From contig JAUHYJ010000040.1 of assembly GCA_030425785.1 (NCBI GenBank), positions 1 through 12,741 on the forward strand: a stretch of DNA of 12,741 bases, written 5' to 3'. The stretch is from Acidimicrobiia bacterium (GTDB lineage: Bacteria > Actinomycetota > Acidimicrobiia > Acidimicrobiales > Ilumatobacteraceae). Below are positions 3,142 to 12,741 of the stretch, in pieces. The translations under genes were made by a program, and so were the position numbers. Positions within the stretch are counted from its first letter, which is position 1, and each line of letters begins with the position of its first letter. Under the pieces are notes generated by a model. It had not been told where the DNA came from, did no database searches, and saw only the letters and a list, made by a program, of their open reading frames with translations.

Positions 3142-4113
3142 ATGTCAACGACCGAGGCGAGTTCGCCGACCATGCCGCTGCTCATCGTGCCGGTCGGCAC
3201 CGACGTCACCGACCCGGTCGAATGGGCCGCAGCTCACCGGGACGAGATCATCGCCGGCCTCCACCACGCAGGCGCCGTGCTCGTGCGTGGTCTCGGCATC
3301 GACAGCCCGACGGTGTTCCGCGCCGTGTGTGCGGCGATCTCGCCGGAGCTCCGCAACTACGTCGGTGGCGACTCGCCCCGCACCGACCTGGCCGATCAGG
3401 TGTACACGTCGACGGAGTATCCGTCCCACCTCGAGGTCTTCCTCCACAACGAGCTGTCGTACGCCGGCTGGTCGCCCGACCGCGTGTTCTTCTGCTGTCT
3501 CGTCCCCGCCGAGACCGGTGGCGAGACCCACGTCGCCGACGGCCGTGAGATCTACCGTCGCCTCGACCCCGACGTCCGCGACCGGTTCGAGTCACGCGGC
3601 GTGACCTACCTGCAACACCTGTGGGATGCGAACGACGCCCCCGGCGTCGGCAAGTCGTGGCAGGAGACGTTCGAGACGGATGACCGGGACGCCGTCGAGG
3701 GGTACCTCCGCGACTCGGACATGGAGTTCGAGTGGACCGCGCTCGGCATCCGCACGGCCGCGACCCACCCGGCCGTGCTGACCCATCCCGTCACCGGCGA
3801 GCGGTGCTGGCACAACCAGGCCGACCAGTGGCACCGCGATCTGGCCGGCGTGAAGGTGTCGTTCGGCGGCGGGGACGACGATCGCGTCGACCCGACGACC
3901 GCCGGGGTCGAGACGCTCGGCAACCACGTCGTCTTCGGCGACGGCTCCGAGATCGACGTCGCCGACCTGCACCACGTCCGATCGGTGACCACCGCCTGCG
4001 AGATGACGTTCCCGTGGCGGGCCGGCGACGTCCTGGTCGTCGACAACATCATGGCGATGCACGGCCGCAAGCCGTTCACCGGCGAACGACGAGTGATCGT
4101 GGCGATGGCATGA
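3142..4113 (+). CDS. TauD/TfdA-family Fe(II)/2-oxoglutarate-dependent dioxygenase
   Basis: A 323-aa soluble oxygenase, normal length for the TauD/TfdA/clavaminate-synthase-like group, which couples 2-oxoglutarate decarboxylation to hydroxylation of a small substrate. The metal site is visible as His102-x-Glu104 (LHNELSYAGW) and the distal His307 (AMHGRKPF); Arg316/317 (GERR) would bind the 2-oxoglutarate carboxylate. TGGETHVADG (125-134) after the first motif matches the family. WHNQADQWH (223-231) resembles the NQ-containing segment of SyrP-like members, which act on amino-acid-type or carrier-bound substrates. The iron ligand is HxE rather than the HxD of TauD itself, a variant common in the clavaminate-synthase-like branch. 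The start has the Shine-Dalgarno AGGGAG. The stop overlaps the next gene as ATGA, so the two products are probably made together. Substrate cannot be deduced. Confidence 0.88.
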   Translation: MSTTEASSPTMPLLIVPVGTDVTDPVEWAAAHRDEIIAGLHHAGAVLVRGLGIDSPTVFRAVCAAISPELRNYVGGDSPRTDLADQVYTSTEYPSHLEVFLHNELSYAGWSPDRVFFCCLVPAETGGETHVADGREIYRRLDPDVRDRFESRGVTYLQHLWDANDAPGVGKSWQETFETDDRDAVEGYLRDSDMEFEWTALGIRTAATHPAVLTHPVTGERCWHNQADQWHRDLAGVKVSFGGGDDDRVDPTTAGVETLGNHVVFGDGSEIDVADLHHVRSVTTACEMTFPWRAGDVLVVDNIMAMHGRKPFTGERRVIVAMA

Positions 4114-4889
4114 GCACCGCGACGAACGACACCACGACAGACGACAGCGCGACGAACGACACCGCGACCCTCGCACGGCTGCGACACGACCTGTCGGCGG
4201 CGTTGCGCCTCGCCGATCGGTTCGGGTTCTCGGAGGGCATCTGCAACCACTTCTCGGCGGTGGCGCCCGGCGACGGCGGGTACCTCCTGATCAATCCGCT
4301 CGGCCTGCACTGGTCCGAGATCGGCCCGGACGACCTGCTCCTGATCGACGGCGACGGCGCCGTGGTCGAGGGCGACGGCGAGGTCGAGGCGACCGCGCTC
4401 CACATCCACGTCGCGGGGCACCGCGCGAACCCACGCCATCGCGTGATCCTGCACGTCCACATGCCACACGCGACCGCCCTCACCATGGTCGAGGGCGGCC
4501 ACCTCGCGATGGCGCACCAGACCGCCGTCAGGTTCCATCGCCGGATGACCCACGTCGCGTTCCGTGGCATCGCGCTCGACCGCAGCGAAGGCGATCGGCT
4601 CGCGGATGCGCAGCGTCGCGACCCCGATGTCGACATCATGTTTCTCGATCACCACGGCATCACGATCGGCGGCGAGTCGGTGGCCGTCGCATTCGACGAC
4701 CTCTACTACCTCGAGCGCGCGTGTCGCCAGCAGATCCTCGCCCAGTCGACGGGGCTGCCGCTGAAGCTCATCCCCGAGCCGATCCTCACCGAGACCTGGC
4801 GACAGCTCGCGGACATCCGCCGCGAGTCGGCCGAGCTCCACTTCGCGGCGCAGATGCGCGCGAACGGCTGGCCGCCGCCGGTCGGCTGA
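4110..4889 (+). CDS. Class II aldolase/adducin-family protein
   Basis: A 259-aa member of the family of zinc-dependent aldolases and epimerases (fuculose-1-P aldolase, ribulose-5-P epimerase, adducin head). Visible residues are SEGICNHFSA (41-50), Glu93 in EATALHIH as the likely catalytic acid, the zinc pair His115/His117 in HVHMPH, and a third His at 181 or 182 in DHHGITIGGES. Start ATG overlaps the dioxygenase stop by four bases (ATGA), the usual sign of translational coupling. The first 20 residues are Thr/Asp/Asn-rich and repetitive, encoded by an imperfect 30-base duplication, and probably lie outside the folded domain. It closely resembles the adducin-like branch often annotated only as class II aldolase, so the real reaction (C-C cleavage, decarboxylation or epimerisation of a hydroxy/keto acid) is unknown. 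It ends 16 bases before the convergent dehalogenase-like gene. Confidence 0.87.
   Translation: MSTATNDTTTDDSATNDTATLARLRHDLSAALRLADRFGFSEGICNHFSAVAPGDGGYLLINPLGLHWSEIGPDDLLLIDGDGAVVEGDGEVEATALHIHVAGHRANPRHRVILHVHMPHATALTMVEGGHLAMAHQTAVRFHRRMTHVAFRGIALDRSEGDRLADAQRRDPDVDIMFLDHHGITIGGESVAVAFDDLYYLERACRQQILAQSTGLPLKLIPEPILTETWRQLADIRRESAELHFAAQMRANGWPPPVG
4119..4163 (+). repeat. Direct repeat in the aldolase N-terminal coding region
   Basis: GCGACGAACGACACC occurs exactly at 4119-4133 and 4149-4163, a spacing of 30 bases. In frame it encodes ATNDT twice, inside a Thr/Asp/Ser-rich tail. The multiple-of-three spacing keeps the frame, so the repeat can expand or shrink without breaking the protein. 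Confidence 0.7.
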
Positions 4890-4905: not shown

Positions 4906-7008
4906 TCAACGCCCGACGCGGCGGCGCGCGTCGTCGGGTGATTCCGCCGCGCGCGCGGCCTCGATGCCCGCGGCCCGGTCGATCGGCGACGTCGCCATCC
5001 CGTGGTCGGCCGGCGGGGCGACACCGGGCGGGAACATCGCGTAGCCGTCGGCGTCACGCGGTTGCTTGTCGAGGTGCAGCTCGCGCGTGTTGACACCCTT
5101 CGGCGGGTCGACCGGCACACCGTCGACCATCTCGACGTCGACCCACCACTTCTTCACCGGGTTGATCGAGCCGCGCCCGAGCCGATCGTCGAGGTGCGCG
5201 ATCCACCGGCGGGTGAACGGCAGCTTCATCGCCGCCCACTGGAACGGCCGCTCGGCGAGCACGCCCTCGACGTTGTACGGACACGTCTTCATGCAGCGAC
5301 CGCACGCGGACCCGCGCATGTTCGTGATCCGGTAGCGGGCGCACCGGTCGACGTCGGGCTTCCACATCTCGTAGCCGTTGAACATCACCTTGTCGCCGAA
5401 CCGGATCGCGCCGCACGGGCACTCGCGGGCGCACTTGGTGCACTTGGTGCAGAAGTCCTGCAGGCCGAAGTCGATCGGGCGATCGGAGGTCAACGGCAGG
5501 TCGGTCGTGACGACACCCGACTTGAAGCGCGGCCCGACGAACGGGTTGAGCACGAGCTCGCCGATCCGCGACAGCTCGCCGATGCCGGACTGCAACAGGA
5601 GCGGGATGTGGTTGACCTCGTCGTCACGGGCGGAGTGCGCCTGGGCGGCGTGACCGAGCCGGCGCAGATGGGCGGCGATCGTGTTCGAGATGATCGACGC
5701 GCGCAGGTACGCCCGCATCGACTGGGCGCCGCTGATCCAGTCGTCGCCGGACGCACCCTCCATCGTCTCGTACCCCTGGTCGAGCACGAAGATGATCGCG
5801 TTGCGGTGCGCAGGCTCGATCGGCGTGCCGTCGGGGCGGTGGGAGTACCACGCGTACTCGGGGGCCTCGCACACGCCGACCAGGTCGGCGCCGAGGAAGT
5901 GACCCAACGCCTTCACCGACGCCGCGTTGTCGTCGGGGTCGTCGGTGCCGGGCGCGACGGTGTCCGCGTGCTCGCCGCGGTGGAGCGCTGCCAGCCGGCT
6001 GAGCAGTTCCTCGGTGGCGCGGCCGTGCGGCGCCTTCGGGATGAAGCGCGCGACCTCGGTCTTCGGCCGTGCACCGAGGTCGCCGGCTCGGGCGCGCACG
6101 AAGAAGTTGTGTCGAGCCGACGGCCGCTGCACCTCCTCGGGAATGATCAGCGTCGTCGGTTCGTCGACCCGCTTGACCTTCTCCATCGGATAGCGACCGA
6201 GGTGCCACGGCCGGTGCCGGCCGTCGAGGCGCTTCCAGCCCGGCCGGGTGCCGCCCCAGCCGACGAGGTGCCGCGCCCGGATCCATGCGTTCCGCTGCGG
6301 TGAGCGGCGGGCGAGCGGACGGTCGATCGGCAGGTCGAGCTCGGTCGTGACGACGGCGATCGCGTACCCGTCGGGCAGGAACGGATGGCGGAACATGCCG
6401 CTACGACCGGGTTCGAGCACCCCGGCCCGCCACCCGACCTCGTGCCGTTCGACGTCCGAGGCCGCAACGGAGTGGGCGGTGGCGGCGAACCCGAGGGTGC
6501 CGAGGTAGCGCGCGAGCACGGTGGCGACCTCGATCGCGCGCAGGTCGGCCGCGGCCTGCTCGGCGCCCTCGATCCAGCGCGCGCCGGGCTCACCGTCGCC
6601 GGCCGGACGACCCAGCCCGACGAGGATCGCGATGGCGTGGGTGTGGCCGTCGATCTGCTGTCCCGGCGCCCAGTCGCCGTCCTCCAGTCGCGTGATGCCG
6701 ACGACGTCGGCGTCGAGGAAGTAGCAGTAGCCGCGGACGTTGTCGACGGTCGCCTCGGGTGACGGCAGCGGCGCCTGCGCGGGTGCGACGTCAGCCGTGC
6801 GAGCGGCGACGAAGACGTCACGGACGGGCGCAAGCACCCTGGTCACGCTCCACTCCCCCGTCGTGTCGGCGGGGTGCTCGGCGCCGGACGACCAGCGACC
6901 CGCCGGCTCGCCGCGGGGCAACCACTCGGTCGGGAGGGGGCCGGCTGCGGCCGGGCGGGAACGGTTGGAGAACAGACGCATGGGAACGGTCGCGACGGAC
7001 GACAGCAC
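4906..7008 (-). CDS. Reductive dehalogenase homologue (cobamide-dependent, [4Fe-4S]), cytoplasmic type
   Basis: A 700-aa protein like the NpRdhA/BhbA-type catabolic reductive dehalogenases, which use a corrinoid and two iron-sulfur clusters to remove halogen from aromatic compounds. Two C-terminal cluster motifs are clear: Cys520, 523, 526 and 530 in FCTKCTKCARECP, and Cys556 with Cys569, 572 and 576 in ACGRCMKTCPYN. The section before them (NHIPLLLQSGIGELSR..., GPRFKSGVVTTDLPL) matches the RdhA catalytic domain; Lys496 is a candidate for the conserved catalytic lysine. Residues about 88-233 repeat the plan of 362-515, an internal duplication with a cluster-free N-terminal copy as described for NpRdhA. 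No twin-arginine signal and no RdhB anchor gene are present, unlike respiratory enzymes. GTG 7008 is preferred for its GGAAGGG site; ATG 6981 is an alternative. QueG is related but far shorter. Substrate unknown. Confidence 0.82.
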   Translation of the reverse strand: MLSSVATVPMRLFSNRSRPAAAGPLPTEWLPRGEPAGRWSSGAEHPADTTGEWSVTRVLAPVRDVFVAARTADVAPAQAPLPSPEATVDNVRGYCYFLDADVVGITRLEDGDWAPGQQIDGHTHAIAILVGLGRPAGDGEPGARWIEGAEQAAADLRAIEVATVLARYLGTLGFAATAHSVAASDVERHEVGWRAGVLEPGRSGMFRHPFLPDGYAIAVVTTELDLPIDRPLARRSPQRNAWIRARHLVGWGGTRPGWKRLDGRHRPWHLGRYPMEKVKRVDEPTTLIIPEEVQRPSARHNFFVRARAGDLGARPKTEVARFIPKAPHGRATEELLSRLAALHRGEHADTVAPGTDDPDDNAASVKALGHFLGADLVGVCEAPEYAWYSHRPDGTPIEPAHRNAIIFVLDQGYETMEGASGDDWISGAQSMRAYLRASIISNTIAAHLRRLGHAAQAHSARDDEVNHIPLLLQSGIGELSRIGELVLNPFVGPRFKSGVVTTDLPLTSDRPIDFGLQDFCTKCTKCARECPCGAIRFGDKVMFNGYEMWKPDVDRCARYRITNMRGSACGRCMKTCPYNVEGVLAERPFQWAAMKLPFTRRWIAHLDDRLGRGSINPVKKWWVDVEMVDGVPVDPPKGVNTRELHLDKQPRDADGYAMFPPGVAPPADHGMATSPIDRAAGIEAARAAESPDDARRRVGR

Positions 7009-7012
7009 CGTA

Positions 7013-7019
7013 CCCTTCC
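7013..7019 (-). promoter_or_regulatory. Shine-Dalgarno that favours the GTG 7008 start of the dehalogenase-like gene
   Basis: On the minus strand GGAAGGG is followed by 4 bases (TACG) and GTG. It sits in the 44-base gap after the lipid-kinase stop, so the two genes may share a transcript. TACGGT overlapping the GTG could instead be a -10 box, which would push the start to ATG 6981. Confidence 0.45.
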
Positions 7020-7052
7020 AGGGCGATCGTGAAGACGGCGGACCGATGGTCG

Positions 7053-7931
7053 TCAGCGGTCGAACCGAGCCCCCGCGAGCAGCAGCGCGCCGGGGCGGGC
7101 TTCGATCGCGAGCGGCGTGTGCCCGACGCATTCGCCGTCGGCGTCGACGCGGACGGGCTGCTCGGCGTCGATCTCGATGCGGGCGCCGCGGAGCACCTGC
7201 ACGTCGGGATGACCGACGTGGCCGCCACTCCCCGCCTTCGGGAGGAGTCGCAGCATCGCGAAGCGCGTCGACGGTCCGATCAGCACCACGTCGAGGAGGC
7301 CGTCGCGGGCGTCGGCGTCGGGGGCGATCCGCATCCCGCCGCCGAACGTCGGGGTGTTGGCGACGCCGACGAGGTTCGGACGCACGTCGTGCGGCACACC
7401 GTCGACGGTGATCCGGAGCGCGTGCTCGCGCATCGTCGGGATCTCGAGCAGCGTGGCCACGGTGTACTTCGCGCTGCCCGGCGGCCAGCGCAGGCGCTCG
7501 GCGCGGATGGTCACGTCGACCGAGAGACCGAGCGTGGCGACGGTGGCCCCGTATCGACCACCGATCCGGAGCAGATCGACCCGTTCGGCGGGCCCGAGCG
7601 AGCGGTCGACCGCCTGGGGCACGTCGCGCGGCAACCCCATCGCCGCCGAGAAGTCGTTGCCCGAGCCGACCGGGACGACGCCGAACGCGACGCCGGTCTC
7701 GGCGACCACCTGCAGCGCCTGGTGCACCGTGCCGTCACCGCCGACGGCGACCAGTCGATCGGCACCGTCCCCGAGAGCGGCGCGCGCCCGGTCGGCAGCG
7801 ACGGCCGGCGAGTCGACCGCCACGCGTTCGACGTCGTAGCCGTGCCGCTCCGCCTCGGCGACCAGGCGCGCGGACGCCTCGTGCGCCGTGCCGCGGCCGG
7901 CGGCCGCGTTCTCCCACACGACGAGGTGCAT
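7053..7931 (-). CDS. Diacylglycerol/lipid kinase-fold protein (DagK/YegS/LCB5 family)
   Basis: A 292-aa soluble kinase of the family that phosphorylates diacylglycerol, sphingoid bases or related lipids with ATP. The nucleotide-binding GGDGTVHQAL (64-73) and GSGNDFSAAMG (89-99) motifs are intact. The C-terminal beta-sandwich shows NTPTFGGGMRIAPDA (192-206), DGLLDV (210-215) and the usual DGE (265-267). ATG 7931 is chosen since the Rossmann-like first strand (MHLVVWENAAAGRG) starts directly there and a TACGGT -10 box lies 8 bases upstream; the frame is open to 8204, but that part only mirrors the sulfatase on the other strand. It is divergent from the sulfatase gene and upstream of the dehalogenase-like gene, with which it may be co-transcribed. 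No metabolic link between the two is evident. Substrate lipid unknown. Confidence 0.9.
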   Translation of the reverse strand: MHLVVWENAAAGRGTAHEASARLVAEAERHGYDVERVAVDSPAVAADRARAALGDGADRLVAVGGDGTVHQALQVVAETGVAFGVVPVGSGNDFSAAMGLPRDVPQAVDRSLGPAERVDLLRIGGRYGATVATLGLSVDVTIRAERLRWPPGSAKYTVATLLEIPTMREHALRITVDGVPHDVRPNLVGVANTPTFGGGMRIAPDADARDGLLDVVLIGPSTRFAMLRLLPKAGSGGHVGHPDVQVLRGARIEIDAEQPVRVDADGECVGHTPLAIEARPGALLLAGARFDR

Positions 7932-7939
7932 GGCGCCAG

Positions 7940-7945
7940 ACCGTA
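7940..7945 (-). promoter_or_regulatory. -10 box of a leaderless promoter for the lipid kinase
   Basis: On the minus strand TACGGT is followed by 8 bases and the ATG at 7931, with no Shine-Dalgarno between. It lies in the 75-base divergent gap shared with the sulfatase. Confidence 0.45.
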
Positions 7946-8006
7946 CCGCCGACATCGGCGCCCCCGATGGACGAGCGCGCCGTCGCCCTCTGCCAGGATC
8001 ATGGCG

Positions 8007-9443
8007 ATGGCGTACGCACAGACACCGGTCGGCGACGAGCGCTGGTTCGCGAGTCGCGGCACCGGGCGGCCGGCGCGCCGGCCGAACATCGTGTTCGTGC
8101 TCGCCGACGACCTGGGCTGGGCCGACCTCGGCTGCTTCGGCTCGACCGAGATCGAGACGCCCAACCTCGACCGGCTCGCGGCCGAGGGCATCCGGTTCAC
8201 GCACGCCTACGCACCGTCACCCTGGTGCTCACCGACCCGGATCGCGCTCTACACCGGCCGCTACCCCGGCCGACTCGACGCCGGGCTCGAGGAACCGTTG
8301 CGGACGCGACAGGACGGCAACGGCATCCCGCACGACCATCCGACGCTCGCGTCGCTGCTCGTCGACGCGGGCTACACGACCGCGATGTTCGGCAAGTGGC
8401 ACTGCGGCTTCATGCCATGGTTCAGCCCGATGCGGTCGGGCTACCAGCGGTTCTTCGGCTGCATCGACGGCGCGATCGACTACCACGAGCACATCGGCAC
8501 GCTCGGCGAGCCCGACCTGTGGGACGGCGAGACACCGATCACCGAGGTCGGCTACTTCACCGACATGATCTCCGAGCGGGCTGCCGAGTGGATCGGCGAG
8601 CAGGGCGACGACCCGTACTACCTCCAGCTCAACTACACCGCACCGCACTGGCCGTGGGAGGGACGCGGGGACGCCGACGTCGGCGCCCGCATCCGCGCCG
8701 ACTTCGAGGCGCAGGACGGCCCCGATTCCTGGCCGCTGCTCCACTGGGACGGCGGCTCGCTGGCGAAGTACCGAGAGCTGGTCGAGACGATGGACGAGGG
8801 CATCGGCGTGGTGCTGGATGCGATCGCCGCGAGCGGCGCCGCCGAGGACACGATCGTCTGCTTCGCATCGGACAACGGCGGTGAGCGATGGTCGAAGAAC
8901 TGGCCGTTCGTCGGCGAGAAGGGCGACATCACCGAGGGCGGCATCCGGGTGCCGTTCATCCTGCGTTGGCCGGCCGCGGTCGACGGCGCCCAGGTCAGCG
9001 GTGAGCCGCACATCATGCTCGACTGGACGGCGACGCTGCTCGACGCCGCAGGGACGGTTCCCGACCCGGTGTACCCGCTCGACGGCCCGAGTCTGCTCCC
9101 GTGGCTCGTCGACGGCGCGGCCTACCCCGACCACGATCTGTACTGGCGCATCTCGTCGCAGAGCGCGATCCGTCGCGGCCCGTACAAGTTCGTCCGCAAC
9201 GACCGTGGACGGGCGCGGCTCGGCAACTGGCCGGTGCGTCCAGGTCGGTTCGAGCACCTGTACGACGTGACGGTCGACGGACGCGAAGCCGCGGACATCG
9301 CCCGTTTCCACCCCGACGTGGTCGACGAGCTGCGGCGTGCGCTCGACGCCCTGAACGACGCGATGCTCGCGTACCCGTCCGAGCATCCGGGCCTGCCTCG
9401 CCAAGCGACGCCGGCGTCACCGGCCGTCGGGCAGGCCGACTGA
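8007..9443 (+). CDS. Sulfatase (formylglycine type, arylsulfatase A-like), no signal peptide
   Basis: A 478-aa hydrolase of the alkaline-phosphatase superfamily that cleaves sulfate esters (some relatives cleave phosphonate or phosphodiester bonds). NIVFVLADDLGWADLG (27-42) supplies the metal pair Asp34/Asp35. CSPTR (74-78) is the Cys-type site converted to formylglycine, with Thr in place of the more usual Ser/Ala. FGKWHCG (128-134), TAPHWPW (211-217) and the second metal pair Asp289/Asn290 in SDNGG follow in the usual order, and GEKGDITEGGIRVPF (303-317) is typical of sulfatases. No signal peptide is visible, so the enzyme is probably cytoplasmic and acts on an imported compound. ATG 8007 is preferred over ATG 8001 because AGGA (7995-7998) then has an 8-base spacing. 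The modifying FGE is not in the window. The stop overlaps the HD gene start as TGATG. Confidence 0.9.
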   Translation: MAYAQTPVGDERWFASRGTGRPARRPNIVFVLADDLGWADLGCFGSTEIETPNLDRLAAEGIRFTHAYAPSPWCSPTRIALYTGRYPGRLDAGLEEPLRTRQDGNGIPHDHPTLASLLVDAGYTTAMFGKWHCGFMPWFSPMRSGYQRFFGCIDGAIDYHEHIGTLGEPDLWDGETPITEVGYFTDMISERAAEWIGEQGDDPYYLQLNYTAPHWPWEGRGDADVGARIRADFEAQDGPDSWPLLHWDGGSLAKYRELVETMDEGIGVVLDAIAASGAAEDTIVCFASDNGGERWSKNWPFVGEKGDITEGGIRVPFILRWPAAVDGAQVSGEPHIMLDWTATLLDAAGTVPDPVYPLDGPSLLPWLVDGAAYPDHDLYWRISSQSAIRRGPYKFVRNDRGRARLGNWPVRPGRFEHLYDVTVDGREAADIARFHPDVVDELRRALDALNDAMLAYPSEHPGLPRQATPASPAVGQAD

Positions 9444-10066: not shown

Positions 10067-10080
10067 CGGCGTCAGCCGTC
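10065..10080. terminator. Candidate bidirectional hairpin between convergent genes
   Basis: GACGGC (10065-10070), loop GTCA, GCCGTC (10075-10080) form a perfect 6-bp GC-rich stem. It spans the stop of the HD gene frame and the stop of the convergent regulator, which are only 5 bases apart. There is no T-run on either side, so intrinsic termination would be weak; the position is the main support. Confidence 0.35.
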
Positions 10081-10437
10081 GGGCGACTCGCCGCCGTGCG
10101 GCTGGTGCTGCAGGGCACCCAAGAGCTGCGAGATCTGGTGGTGCTCCTCGAGCGGGTGACGCAGGTGCAGCTCGTCGTCGACGGCGTAGTGGTTCCGGCG
10201 TCCACGCCGCTCACGGCGGAGATAGCCGTCACGCTCGAGGTCGTCGACGATCTGGAGCGCCGTCCGCTCGGTGACGCCGACGAGGTCGGCGATGTCACGC
10301 AGTCGCAGATCGGGCGTTCGGGCGATCGCCAGCAGGACGTGTGCGTGGTTCGTCAGGAACGTCCACGAGCGACCGCTCGGCTCGTCCGCACCGGTCCGGG
10401 CCACCTCGGCAGTGTACTCCTCCACGGGATCTGACAA
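10072..10437 (-). CDS. Winged-helix DNA-binding regulator (MarR/ArsR-like)
   Basis: A 121-aa protein with one recognisable DNA-binding domain. WTFLTNHAHVLLAIARTP (25-42) is followed by a helix-turn-helix, LRLRDIADLVGVTERTALQIV (44-64), and a basic wing, GYLRRERRGRRNHYAV (71-86). The C-terminus is His/Gln-rich (HHQISQLLGALQHQPHGG) and could help dimerise or bind a metal; this is a guess. The start is uncertain: the frame opens with TTG at 10437, 8 bases after a TATAGT box (a leaderless arrangement), while GTG at 10425 is a second choice; neither has a Shine-Dalgarno. It is divergent from the DabB-DabA gene and shares an AT-rich region with two palindromes, so control of that gene and of itself is likely by position. 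It is not the LysR-type CbbR known for many carbon-concentrating systems. Confidence 0.8.
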   Translation of the reverse strand: MSDPVEEYTAEVARTGADEPSGRSWTFLTNHAHVLLAIARTPDLRLRDIADLVGVTERTALQIVDDLERDGYLRRERRGRRNHYAVDDELHLRHPLEEHHQISQLLGALQHQPHGGESPDG

Positions 10438-10438
10438 G

Positions 10439-10449
10439 TAGTTTAACTA
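10439..10449. promoter_or_regulatory. Inverted repeat TAGTT-T-AACTA, candidate operator
   Basis: A perfect 5-bp inverted repeat around a single T. It overlaps the proposed -10 box (ACTATA on the plus strand, TATAGT on the minus strand, 10446-10451) and abuts the TTG start of the winged-helix regulator. Binding here could block the regulator's own promoter; this is inferred from position only. Confidence 0.4.
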
Positions 10450-10451
10450 TA
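10446..10451 (-). promoter_or_regulatory. -10 box of the regulator gene
   Basis: Minus-strand TATAGT, five of six bases of the TATAAT consensus, is followed by 8 bases and the TTG start at 10437. The transcript would be leaderless or nearly so. No -35 match is evident. Confidence 0.45.
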
Positions 10452-10453
10452 GA

Positions 10454-10470
10454 ATTGCATTTCATGTAAT
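10454..10470. promoter_or_regulatory. 17-base inverted repeat, candidate operator of the dab gene
   Basis: ATTGCAT-TTC-ATGTAAT: the 7-base arms are complementary at six of seven positions. It covers the candidate -35 element (TTGCAT, 10455-10460) of the plus-strand promoter and lies just beyond the regulator's -10 box, so one bound dimer could affect both genes. The size and symmetry suit a winged-helix dimer. Confidence 0.5.
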
Positions 10471-10484
10471 GGTCTGCGTATGTT
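10455..10484 (+). promoter_or_regulatory. Candidate sigma-70-type promoter of the dab fusion gene
   Basis: TTGCAT (10455-10460) and TATGTT (10479-10484) are separated by 18 bases, an acceptable spacing. They match three and four of six consensus bases. Transcription would start near 10491, immediately before ATG 10492 of a small upstream frame. This is one of the few AT-rich stretches in the window. Confidence 0.45.
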
Positions 10485-10491
10485 GTCCCTC

Positions 10492-10572
10492 ATGATCGCT
10501 CGCCCCACGACCGTTCGCCCGGACCGAATCGCCTCGGACGCACGCCCGGCCGACGAGGACGCCCCGTGCTGA
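10492..10572 (+). CDS. Possible 26-aa leader peptide overlapping the dab start
   Basis: ATG 10492 opens a 26-codon frame (MIARPTTVRPDRIASDARPA, then six more residues) ending in TGA 10570-10572. The stop overlaps the GTG CTG start of the DabB-DabA frame. The ATG lies 7 bases after the TATGTT -10 box, the same geometry as the leaderless genes in this window, so it would be the first codon of the message. Translation through it could deliver ribosomes to GTG 10566. The peptide is Arg/Asp/Pro-rich with no run of one amino acid that would suggest attenuation. It may equally be untranslated 5' leader. Confidence 0.3.
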   Translation: MIARPTTVRPDRIASDARPADEDAPC

Positions 10573-12741
10573 CCGTCGTCCTGCTCGTCGCGGTCCTCAC
10601 GCCGCTCGCAGCGACCGGTGCGGCGTCACTCGCCGGCGCACGTGTCGCTCTGACCGCCCGCATCTGCGTCGCGGCAACCGCGGTGGCGACGATCGCCGCC
10701 GCGGTGGCACTCGGTGCGACGGTGACCGCCGACGACGGCAACCCGAGCGTGGGGCTCGAACTCCCGACCGCGGCGGTGCTCGGCGTCGATCGCGCGACCG
10801 CGATGCTGCTCGTCGCCGTCGTCGGCACCGGCCTCGTGGTGGCCAGCTTCTCTCGTCGCTCGCTCGATGCGGGACACCACCGCACGCGGGGCTACTTCAC
10901 GGCGCTCGCCGCCGTGGTCACCGGGTCAGCGCTCGTCGTACTGCCCGGCGGACCGATGCCGCTCGTCGTCGGCTGGCTCGTCTCCGGGCATGCGCTCCTG
11001 CACCTGGCGGGCGGATGGGTCGACTCGACCGGCGCACGCCGTGCCCACCGCCGGGCGCGAGCGACCGTGATCGTCGGCGACGTGGCCCTCGTCGCCGGTG
11101 TGGCGATCGCCGTCGCCGTCGCCGGCCCCGCGGCGGTCGCCGCGCCCGCTGACACGATCGGCGAGCTCACGTCGGCATCGCTCGCCGGCATCGGCGGCCA
11201 CATGTTCGTCGCCGTCGCCGTCCTCGTCGCGGGCGCATCGAGGTCGGCACTCGTGCCGTTCCACCGATGGCTGACGGCCACGCTGTACGCGCCGACGCCC
11301 GTCTCGGCGCTCGTCCACGCCGGCTTCGTCAGCGGTGCCGGGCTCCTGCTCATCCGGTTCGCGGTCCCGTTCGTCCGCGCCGACGTCGCCGTCGTCGCCG
11401 CCATGGCGCTCGCGACCGCCACCATCGCACTCGGTGTCGGGGCCGCCCTCACCCGCCCCGACGCGAAGGGGGCGCTCGCCTGGTCGACCGTGGCGCAGAT
11501 GGCGTTCATGGTGCTGCAGTGCGCGGTCGGCGCATTCGCAGGCGCCGTGTTCCACATCATCGGTCACGGCATGTACAAAGCGGCGCTGTTCCTCGGGGTC
11601 GGCGACACCGTGGCCGCCACGTTGCGCTCACGCCGTGCGCCCCGGCGATCGACACCACTCGGCGTCGGCGTGCACGCGGCGGCAGCCGCCGCCATCGCCA
11701 CCGGTGCCGTGGCGCTCGGGCTCGTCGTCGGACCGACCGGACTCCAGACGGGTGAGTGGCTCGTGCTCGTCGTGTTCGCCTGGCTGGCGCTCGCCGCCGG
11801 CGCGCACGGCGCGCTCGGCACGACGTCGCTCGGACGCGGGGCTGCCGCGACGATCGCAGTCGCCGGGGCGGCGTTGGCCGCGGTCGCGTACTTCGCCGGC
11901 CTCGCCGCCACGAAGCGGTTCCTCGCACCGTCGTTCGAGACCGTCGAACCCGACACCACCGTGACCACGATCGGCGCCATCGTCGCCGTGACGGTGCTCG
12001 CGGCGCTCGCCGCATCGGTCGTCGCACCCGGCACGTCCGCCTCGGCGTGGCGGTCCGGCCTTCGCCACCGGGTGCAGCACTGGACCGAGGTCCGGGCGCC
12101 GCTCGATCTGTCGTCGGTGACGCCTGCCTCCTCGACCGCGCCGCCGGCCCACCGCCACGCCGAGGCGCCGAACGGCGACGACCGCGTCCAGGTCGCCGAG
12201 TTGCAGGCCAAGGTCGCGCGGGCGGTCGAGATCGTGGCGCCGATGTGGCCGCTGGCGTCGTTCGTCGCCGTCAACCCGCTGGGCGGGCTCGAACGGCAGA
12301 GCTTCGACGATGCGACCGCCGAGGCGCGGCGGTGGTCACGTGGCCGGACCCACCGGACGCTCGACCAGTTCCGAGCCGACCACGAACGCGGACTGAGCAC
12401 CAGCGACGATCTGGTCTACGCGGCCCACGAGCTGGCGATGGTCGCGTGCAGCCAGCCGCCGGTCGAGCTGCCCGGACGGGCGATCGACGCAGTCGAGGTC
12501 GTGCTCGCCGACCTCCTGCACGGGCCGTGCGCCGCGACGGTCCCCGAACCGCGCACGGCGCTCGAGCGGCGGTTCGGCCCGGACGCCGGCGACCTCGTCG
12601 GCATCGACGATCTCGTCGGCGAGTGGGTGGCCGGACACCTCGCACCCCCGACCTGGCCGCTCGAGGTTCCACCCGATGCCGGCCGGCACGCGTTCATCGC
12701 CACGGCGCGGCGCGACGCGATCGCCGTGGCCCGACGGCACC
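10566..12741 (+). CDS. DabB-DabA fusion: inorganic-carbon uptake protein (partial, C-terminus beyond window)
   Basis: One uninterrupted frame of 725 codons to the window end. Residues 1 to about 500 are a polytopic membrane domain of the NuoL/MrpA proton-channel family: SRSALVPFHRWL (225-236), then APTPVSALVHAG (242-253), KGALAWSTVAQM (301-312) and FHIIGHGMYKAALFLG (329-344). This is the DabB pattern, with HRW and Arg226 where NuoL has Lys. A Ser/Thr/Pro/Ala-rich linker (about 510-535) leads to a DUF2309/DabA start, with WPLASFVAVNPLGGLE (561-576) and DQFRADHERGLSTSDD. In known DAB systems DabA and DabB are two proteins: DabB is thought to pass protons and DabA, with a carbonic-anhydrase-like zinc site, to hydrate CO2 vectorially. 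The zinc ligands lie beyond the window. GTG 10566 has Shine-Dalgarno GAGGA (10555-10559), 6-base spacing. The divergent regulator is likely involved in its control. Confidence 0.85.
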   Translation, partial: MLTVVLLVAVLTPLAATGAASLAGARVALTARICVAATAVATIAAAVALGATVTADDGNPSVGLELPTAAVLGVDRATAMLLVAVVGTGLVVASFSRRSLDAGHHRTRGYFTALAAVVTGSALVVLPGGPMPLVVGWLVSGHALLHLAGGWVDSTGARRAHRRARATVIVGDVALVAGVAIAVAVAGPAAVAAPADTIGELTSASLAGIGGHMFVAVAVLVAGASRSALVPFHRWLTATLYAPTPVSALVHAGFVSGAGLLLIRFAVPFVRADVAVVAAMALATATIALGVGAALTRPDAKGALAWSTVAQMAFMVLQCAVGAFAGAVFHIIGHGMYKAALFLGVGDTVAATLRSRRAPRRSTPLGVGVHAAAAAAIATGAVALGLVVGPTGLQTGEWLVLVVFAWLALAAGAHGALGTTSLGRGAAATIAVAGAALAAVAYFAGLAATKRFLAPSFETVEPDTTVTTIGAIVAVTVLAALAASVVAPGTSASAWRSGLRHRVQHWTEVRAPLDLSSVTPASSTAPPAHRHAEAPNGDDRVQVAELQAKVARAVEIVAPMWPLASFVAVNPLGGLERQSFDDATAEARRWSRGRTHRTLDQFRADHERGLSTSDDLVYAAHELAMVACSQPPVELPGRAIDAVEVVLADLLHGPCAATVPEPRTALERRFGPDAGDLVGIDDLVGEWVAGHLAPPTWPLEVPPDAGRHAFIATARRDAIAVARRH

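Follow-up and report, generated by a model that had tools for sequence, protein, structure and literature searches.

A natural DabB-DabA fusion gene in an actinobacterial genome and its relation to described DAB systems

Described DAB systems and their natural fusions

In DAB2 of Halothiobacillus neapolitanus (DabA2/DabB2; PDB 9rd0, 9rd8, and 9rd9), the channel residues of DabB2 and a finger of DabA2 carrying Glu444 form a proposed proton path, which is coupled to a zinc site hydrating CO2 in one direction, according to PMC13144422. Because the two-subunit complex dissociated during preparation, DAB2 was fused artificially for structural work, and the same paper states that the engineered C-to-N DabB2-DabA2 fusion, which mirrors the natural one, did not significantly affect growth yield. 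Natural DabB-DabA fusions were already in print in 2015 (PMC4633670), 2019 (PMC6689103), and 2026 (PMC13144422). Fan 2019 describes a fused mpsA-mpsB (DAC) gene in Acidimicrobium ferrooxidans, and Lo 2026 calls this fusion a naturally occurring single-subunit DAC. In the 2015 paper, a NuoL-type gene, a gene for a hypothetical protein, a DUF2309 gene, and a PII/SbtB homologue stand in a row in H. neapolitanus, and a 2017 paper (PMC5700660) notes that the operons of one ybcC clade (ybcC encodes DUF2309, or DabA) carry a PII gene at their 3′ terminus.

The gene analyzed here lies at the end of a stretch of DNA of 12,741 bases (hereafter, the window). It shares both domains, the zinc site, and the proton-path residues with DAB2, but the latter is encoded by two separate genes in nature, whereas the window holds a single frame. 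The DAC of A. ferrooxidans (L053; we took genome G067 as this species) comes from the same order as the window's genome and likewise has DabB followed by DabA in one chain (PF00662, PF00361, and PF10070). Unlike the window gene, it has a DabA of another clade and no PII gene found in the surrounding 12 kb with the profile used, and its host is capable of autotrophic growth. Unfused dabB-dabA-PII operons of other actinobacteria and Legionella, one operon type in PMC5700660, have the same gene order, with the PII-like gene directly after dabA, but their dabB and dabA are in different frames and overlap as ATGA in one example (L066). The window gene is thus an addition to an already published kind of natural DabB-DabA fusion and is not new in kind; the novelty implied by the first-pass annotation did not survive these reports or the frequency of fused relatives given below. 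Among the papers listed by our literature searches, none dealt with the window's own clade or with repeated, separate fusion events, which is weak evidence of absence, as few of these searches addressed fusions directly.

The fused frame and its continuation on a second contig

The window is an entire contig (C599) ending inside DabA, and it belongs to a 4.4 Mb genome assembly of 857 contigs that is 83.3% complete. The frame opens at position 10470, and GTG 10566 was the sole ATG, GTG, or TTG among its first 40 codons. From this codon, the frame ran free of stops to position 12740 and was still open at the contig end. Pfam searches placed a DabB-type domain and a DabA domain in this one frame with no stop between them: PF00361 matched with an E-value of 9.7e-28 and 97.6 bits (cut-off, 21.5), and the N-terminus of DabA matched at amino acids 550–692 to about positions 1–120 of the PF10070 profile, with an E-value of 1.5e-11 and 44 bits (cut-off, 25). 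Two matches to curated families in one stop-free frame, recurring in the uninterrupted proteins of relatives, put the fused frame beyond chance. The fusion of dabB and dabA in one frame in the window was confirmed, as the first-pass annotation had proposed from GTG 10566, and it is a reasonable inference that the fusion fixes a 1:1 stoichiometry. The coordinates of the features are collected in Table 1.

Table 1. Positions of the fused gene, its parts, and its neighbors (window coordinates unless a contig is named)
Feature	Positions	Strand	Size and supporting observations
5′ part of fused dabB-dabA	10566..12741	+	725 codons, running off contig end; open frame, PF00361 and PF10070, full-length fused relatives
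DabB core, Proton_antipo_M (PF00361)	10962..11630	+	aa 133-355; holds S247, H251, K301, S307, H330, H334, K338
Linker	12057..12209	+	aa 498-548, between last hydrophobic DabB stretch (to about aa 495) and DabA
DabA N-terminal part	12213..12741	+	PF10070 1-120 and on; continues on contig C568 (L001:1-1974), outside window
Winged-helix (MarR-like) regulator gene	10072..10437	-	121 aa, divergent; PF12802, E 8.1e-8; homologues at same place in L056 and L057
Intergenic region between divergent genes, probable control region	10438..10565	.	128 bases; from coordinates
PII-like gene, directly 3′ of dabA	C568, L001:1961-2344		PF00543, E 3.2e-20

The motifs named at the outset were present, namely, S247 and H251 in TPVSALVHAG, K301 and S307, H330, H334, and K338, and W561-P562-L563. 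The linker had been described as rich in Ser, Thr, Pro, and Ala; this was correct for its core (amino acids 513–532, 13 of 20 residues), while over its whole length these residues made up 20 of 51. A cytoplasmic linker, as had also been suggested, agrees with the tolerance of the engineered DabB2-DabA2 fusion described above.

Two PF10070 matches were found in the genome: the one in the window and one starting at base 4 of contig C568 that covers profile positions 161–747 (E-values of about 2.4e-187 to 4.4e-187). When the two pieces were aligned as separate fragments, the gap between them was 8 residues in eight of the nine fused relatives shown and 7 residues in the remaining one. Multiple alignment gave the same two proteins, P0064 and P0065, as the nearest relatives of both pieces, with identities of 57.2% and 55.5% to the window piece and 64.8% and 66.8% to the C568 piece, respectively; P0064 is itself fused and matches PF10070 at full length (1–747). 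Because of the gap of about 8 residues in relatives and the shared nearest relatives, the two pieces probably represent one gene split by a short assembly gap; we infer this join across C599 and C568, the intervening bases being absent from the assembly. The rest of DabA, which had been expected beyond the contig end, was accordingly located, given this join, at the start of C568 with its zinc-site residues (Cys-Asp-Arg, His, and Cys).

Frequency and origins of the fusion

A protein search with the fusion of L056 as the query, in which scoring was limited to the 8000 candidates with the most words in common, yielded 1225 proteins with E-values of 1e-5 or lower. Among the matches listed, 85 of 120 carried PF00361 and PF10070 in one chain, the arrangement that the first-pass annotation had suggested looking for, and the idea of a one-off fusion was rejected on this count. 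Counting the fused proteins by length likewise gave 85. The fused proteins bearing organism names among the matches listed came from Acidimicrobiales, Acidimicrobiia, Ilumatobacter, and other actinobacterial MAGs. One of the 85, P0077, was considered as a triple fusion with PII and rejected, since its DabA tail lies in a different frame; it is still counted among the 85. L075 (Svornostia) was likewise rejected as a fusion, with its DabB tail out of frame, and was left out of the trees. Apparent frame shifts, either inside dabA or where dabB ends (L066, L075, and P0077), can mimic or hide fusions.

PF10070 was present in 49 of 298 genomes of the same order, and 35 of these 49, plus the window's own, are represented in a DabA tree of 151 rows. 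The tree includes 40 loci from the same order, family, or genus, the window's among them; four count as fused (L053, L056, L057, and the window by the inferred join), and DabB lay outside the DabA frame in the other 36, one of which (L043) had no DabB in view. Separate dabB and dabA genes were also found in G002, of the same genus as the window's genome. Rows carry the tree label "separate" when DabB falls outside the DabA frame; 11 rows so labeled showed no DabB at all (L043, L079, L089, L094, L095, L108, L121, L128, L131, L132, and L138). Twenty-five of the 85 fused proteins were placed in the tree. Duplicates of loci (among L001-L005, L007, L022, L026, L031, L032, L034, L039, L040, L044, L045, and L052) were left out, the identical C568 piece stands in for L067, and L006/L066, one locus with a shifted dabA frame, was left out, so that genome G026 is absent from the tree.

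In this tree (FastTree), the DabA of the window fell into a clade with SH-like support of 100 that comprises 20 rows labeled as fused and one row whose state is not visible. The 20 fused rows include the window's own, through the join proposed above, as well as two pairs of rows that are identical. The rows nearest to the DabA of L053 were the unfused L024 and L023, and the fusion of Jiella mangrovi (L150) was placed elsewhere again. When the DabA of L053 and the window fusion clade were held together as one clade (46 rows), the log-likelihood was 400.4 lower and the arrangement was rejected (AU test, p = 1.35e-5), a test weakened by the choice of the group after the first tree had been viewed. 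The window clade and the A. ferrooxidans fusion thus do not appear to stem from the same fusion event. Because the window clade does not group with that fusion, the trees suggest that fusion probably happened more than once, and this is the small addition made by the window clade. The fused label changed at least nine times on the 151-row tree, eight of the changes being forced by well-supported branches; the number of fusion origins is soft, since each change could reflect gain as well as loss of the fusion, and several of the rows labeled as fused are single metagenomic proteins unchecked against reads.

Conserved residues, predicted function, and gene neighborhood

Alignment and motifs equated S247, H251, K301, S307, H330, H334, and K338 of the window with S256, H260, K310, S316, H339, H343, and K347 of DabB2, respectively, and alignments equated C176, D178, R180, E275, H342, and C357 of the C568 piece with C351, D353, R355, E444, H524, and C539 of DabA2, respectively. 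The zinc ligands Cys, His, and Cys (C176, H342, and C357) and the Asp-Arg dyad (D178 and R180) are therefore present on the C568 piece, and all seven DabB proton-path residues and the equivalent of Glu444 in the DabA finger are present on the window and C568, respectively; the Glu444 assignment rests on the multiple alignment with relatives, from which, as from a further alignment, one pairwise alignment to DabA2 differs in placing this region. Among the matches listed, the equivalents of K310, S316, H339, H343, and K347 were kept in all 85 fused proteins, those of S256 and H260 in 83 (2 gaps), and those of C351, D353, R355, E444, H524, and C539 in 84 (1 gap). Because these named DAB2 residues are all kept, a DAB2-like way of working is the most likely one for the window gene. 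Sequence comparison with solved structures turned up a single relative of the DabA piece, DabA2 (9rd0_A; E-value of 3.6e-104); for the window piece, DabB2 (9rd0_B) ranked fourth of 52 matches with an E-value of 1.8e-24, behind three NDH-1 subunits.

A point against this reading is that two ion-pair residues of DabB2 were replaced in the window: K235 by Arg at amino acid 226 (position 11241) and R182 by Ile at amino acid 169 (position 11070). Among the 85 fused proteins in the matches listed, the K235 position was occupied by Arg in 80 and by Lys in one (4 gaps), and the R182 position by Arg in just five (4 gaps). Unlike the usual fused proteins, L053 retains Lys and Arg at these two positions, respectively.

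Judging from its sequence, the gene very probably encodes a single-chain DAB/DAC (MpsAB-type) inorganic-carbon pump. The product would consist of an N-terminal NuoL-like DabB membrane domain, a variable cytoplasmic linker, and a C-terminal DabA with a beta-carbonic-anhydrase-like zinc site. Its predicted function is CO2 hydration driven by the proton motive force: protons passing through DabB would drive the one-way formation of bicarbonate from CO2 in the cytoplasm, as proposed for DAB2, and the bicarbonate would feed the carboxylases of a host whose genome yielded no RuBisCO match. For the homologous pair MpsAB of Staphylococcus aureus, sodium/bicarbonate symport has been proposed (PMC13144422 and PMC6689103), and the window gene might by analogy encode a fused symporter of that type instead of a proton-driven CO2 hydratase. 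This reading appears unlikely, as zinc site, Asp-Arg dyad, and Glu444 position have all been retained and DAB2 needs no sodium according to PMC13144422, although conservation does not settle the ion. A proton is the presumed coupling ion of the window system.

The other alternatives concern the gene itself. It is highly improbable that dabB and dabA are truly separate overlapping genes whose fused frame is an artefact of assembly or sequencing error. The assembly is fragmented and the contig ends inside the gene, some apparent fusions elsewhere do result from shifted frames, as in L075 (P0077 has a further shifted frame, in its DabA tail), and most of the same-order loci examined, as well as that of G002, are unfused; the linker, however, sits 530–680 bases inside the contig and not at its end, the window belongs to the strongly supported fused clade described above, and full-length fusions with in-frame linkers came from several source collections. 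The linker region also contains in-frame GTG 12072, GTG 12117, and TTG 12201, from which an internal start could yield free DabA as a second product of the same gene. We consider this very unlikely, because no in-frame ATG occurs in amino acids 486–559, the first being at amino acid 560 inside the DabA motif, and inspection by eye, unscored, revealed no obvious ribosome-binding site within 20 bases upstream of any of the three codons. A genuine fusion encoding one chain remains our preferred reading.

The adjoining divergent winged-helix gene recognized in the first-pass annotation was borne out by its PF12802 match, and its product probably controls transcription. Homologues of this winged-helix protein also accompany DAB genes in further actinobacteria, in Planctomycetota, and in one Bdellovibrionales genome. 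The impression that the fused gene stands alone with this regulator was due to the contig end and proved mistaken, as a PII-like gene, with GAGGAG shortly upstream of its ATG, follows DabA on C568. The same-order loci L056 (1371 amino acids) and L057 (1390 amino acids) hold an uninterrupted fusion in the full winged-helix/dabBA/PII module. A PII gene followed the fused gene in L056, L057, and C568; neither L053 nor L150 had one there. For separate dabA genes, the count covered rows that extend 450 bases or more past dabA: a PII gene came next in 11 of 33 rows from the same order, in 4 of 7 from other Actinomycetota, in 5 of 35 from Pseudomonadota, and in 0 of 35 whose phylum is another one or is not stated. 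A PII linkage peculiar to fused genes was rejected, since a PII gene also follows separate dabA genes.

The downstream PII-like protein may tune the activity of the pump. More tentatively, DabB and DabA may have fused several times independently, with a large fused clade, separate from the A. ferrooxidans fusion and including Ilumatobacter and further Acidimicrobiia MAGs among the members that have names, having kept the single chain beside its own PII-like protein; it is possible, if somewhat doubtful, that the fusion is an adaptation and not an accident, for example, a pump gated by a PII protein bound across the linker. Testable questions of regulation arise from the PII neighbor and from what look like repeated fusions, and the natural fused clade is a source of single-chain proteins for biochemistry.

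As had been noted for the window, RuBisCO was not in view, and PF00016 was not found in the window's genome (0 of 1 genome; assembly 83.3% complete). The genome contained one match to the beta-carbonic-anhydrase family (PF00484, E-value of 6.6e-13) on contig C734 (L073), covering positions 2–73 of 156. An actinobacterial genome that encodes a single-chain DAB pump and has no detected RuBisCO fits the view, published in PMC13144422, that DABs are not confined to autotrophs.

Elsewhere in the window, a TauD-family dioxygenase gene (PF02668; 3142–4113, + strand) is followed by a class II aldolase gene (PF00596, E-value of 2.7e-36; 4107–4886, + strand). Fer4_7 marks a ferredoxin-type 4Fe-4S region (E-value of 3.2e-6, barely above the cut-off) in the 741-amino-acid protein encoded at positions 4906–7131 (− strand), which otherwise matched no Pfam family, and a frame at 6759–9440 (+ strand) carries a sulfatase domain (PF00884, E-value of 8.4e-51) in its latter half.
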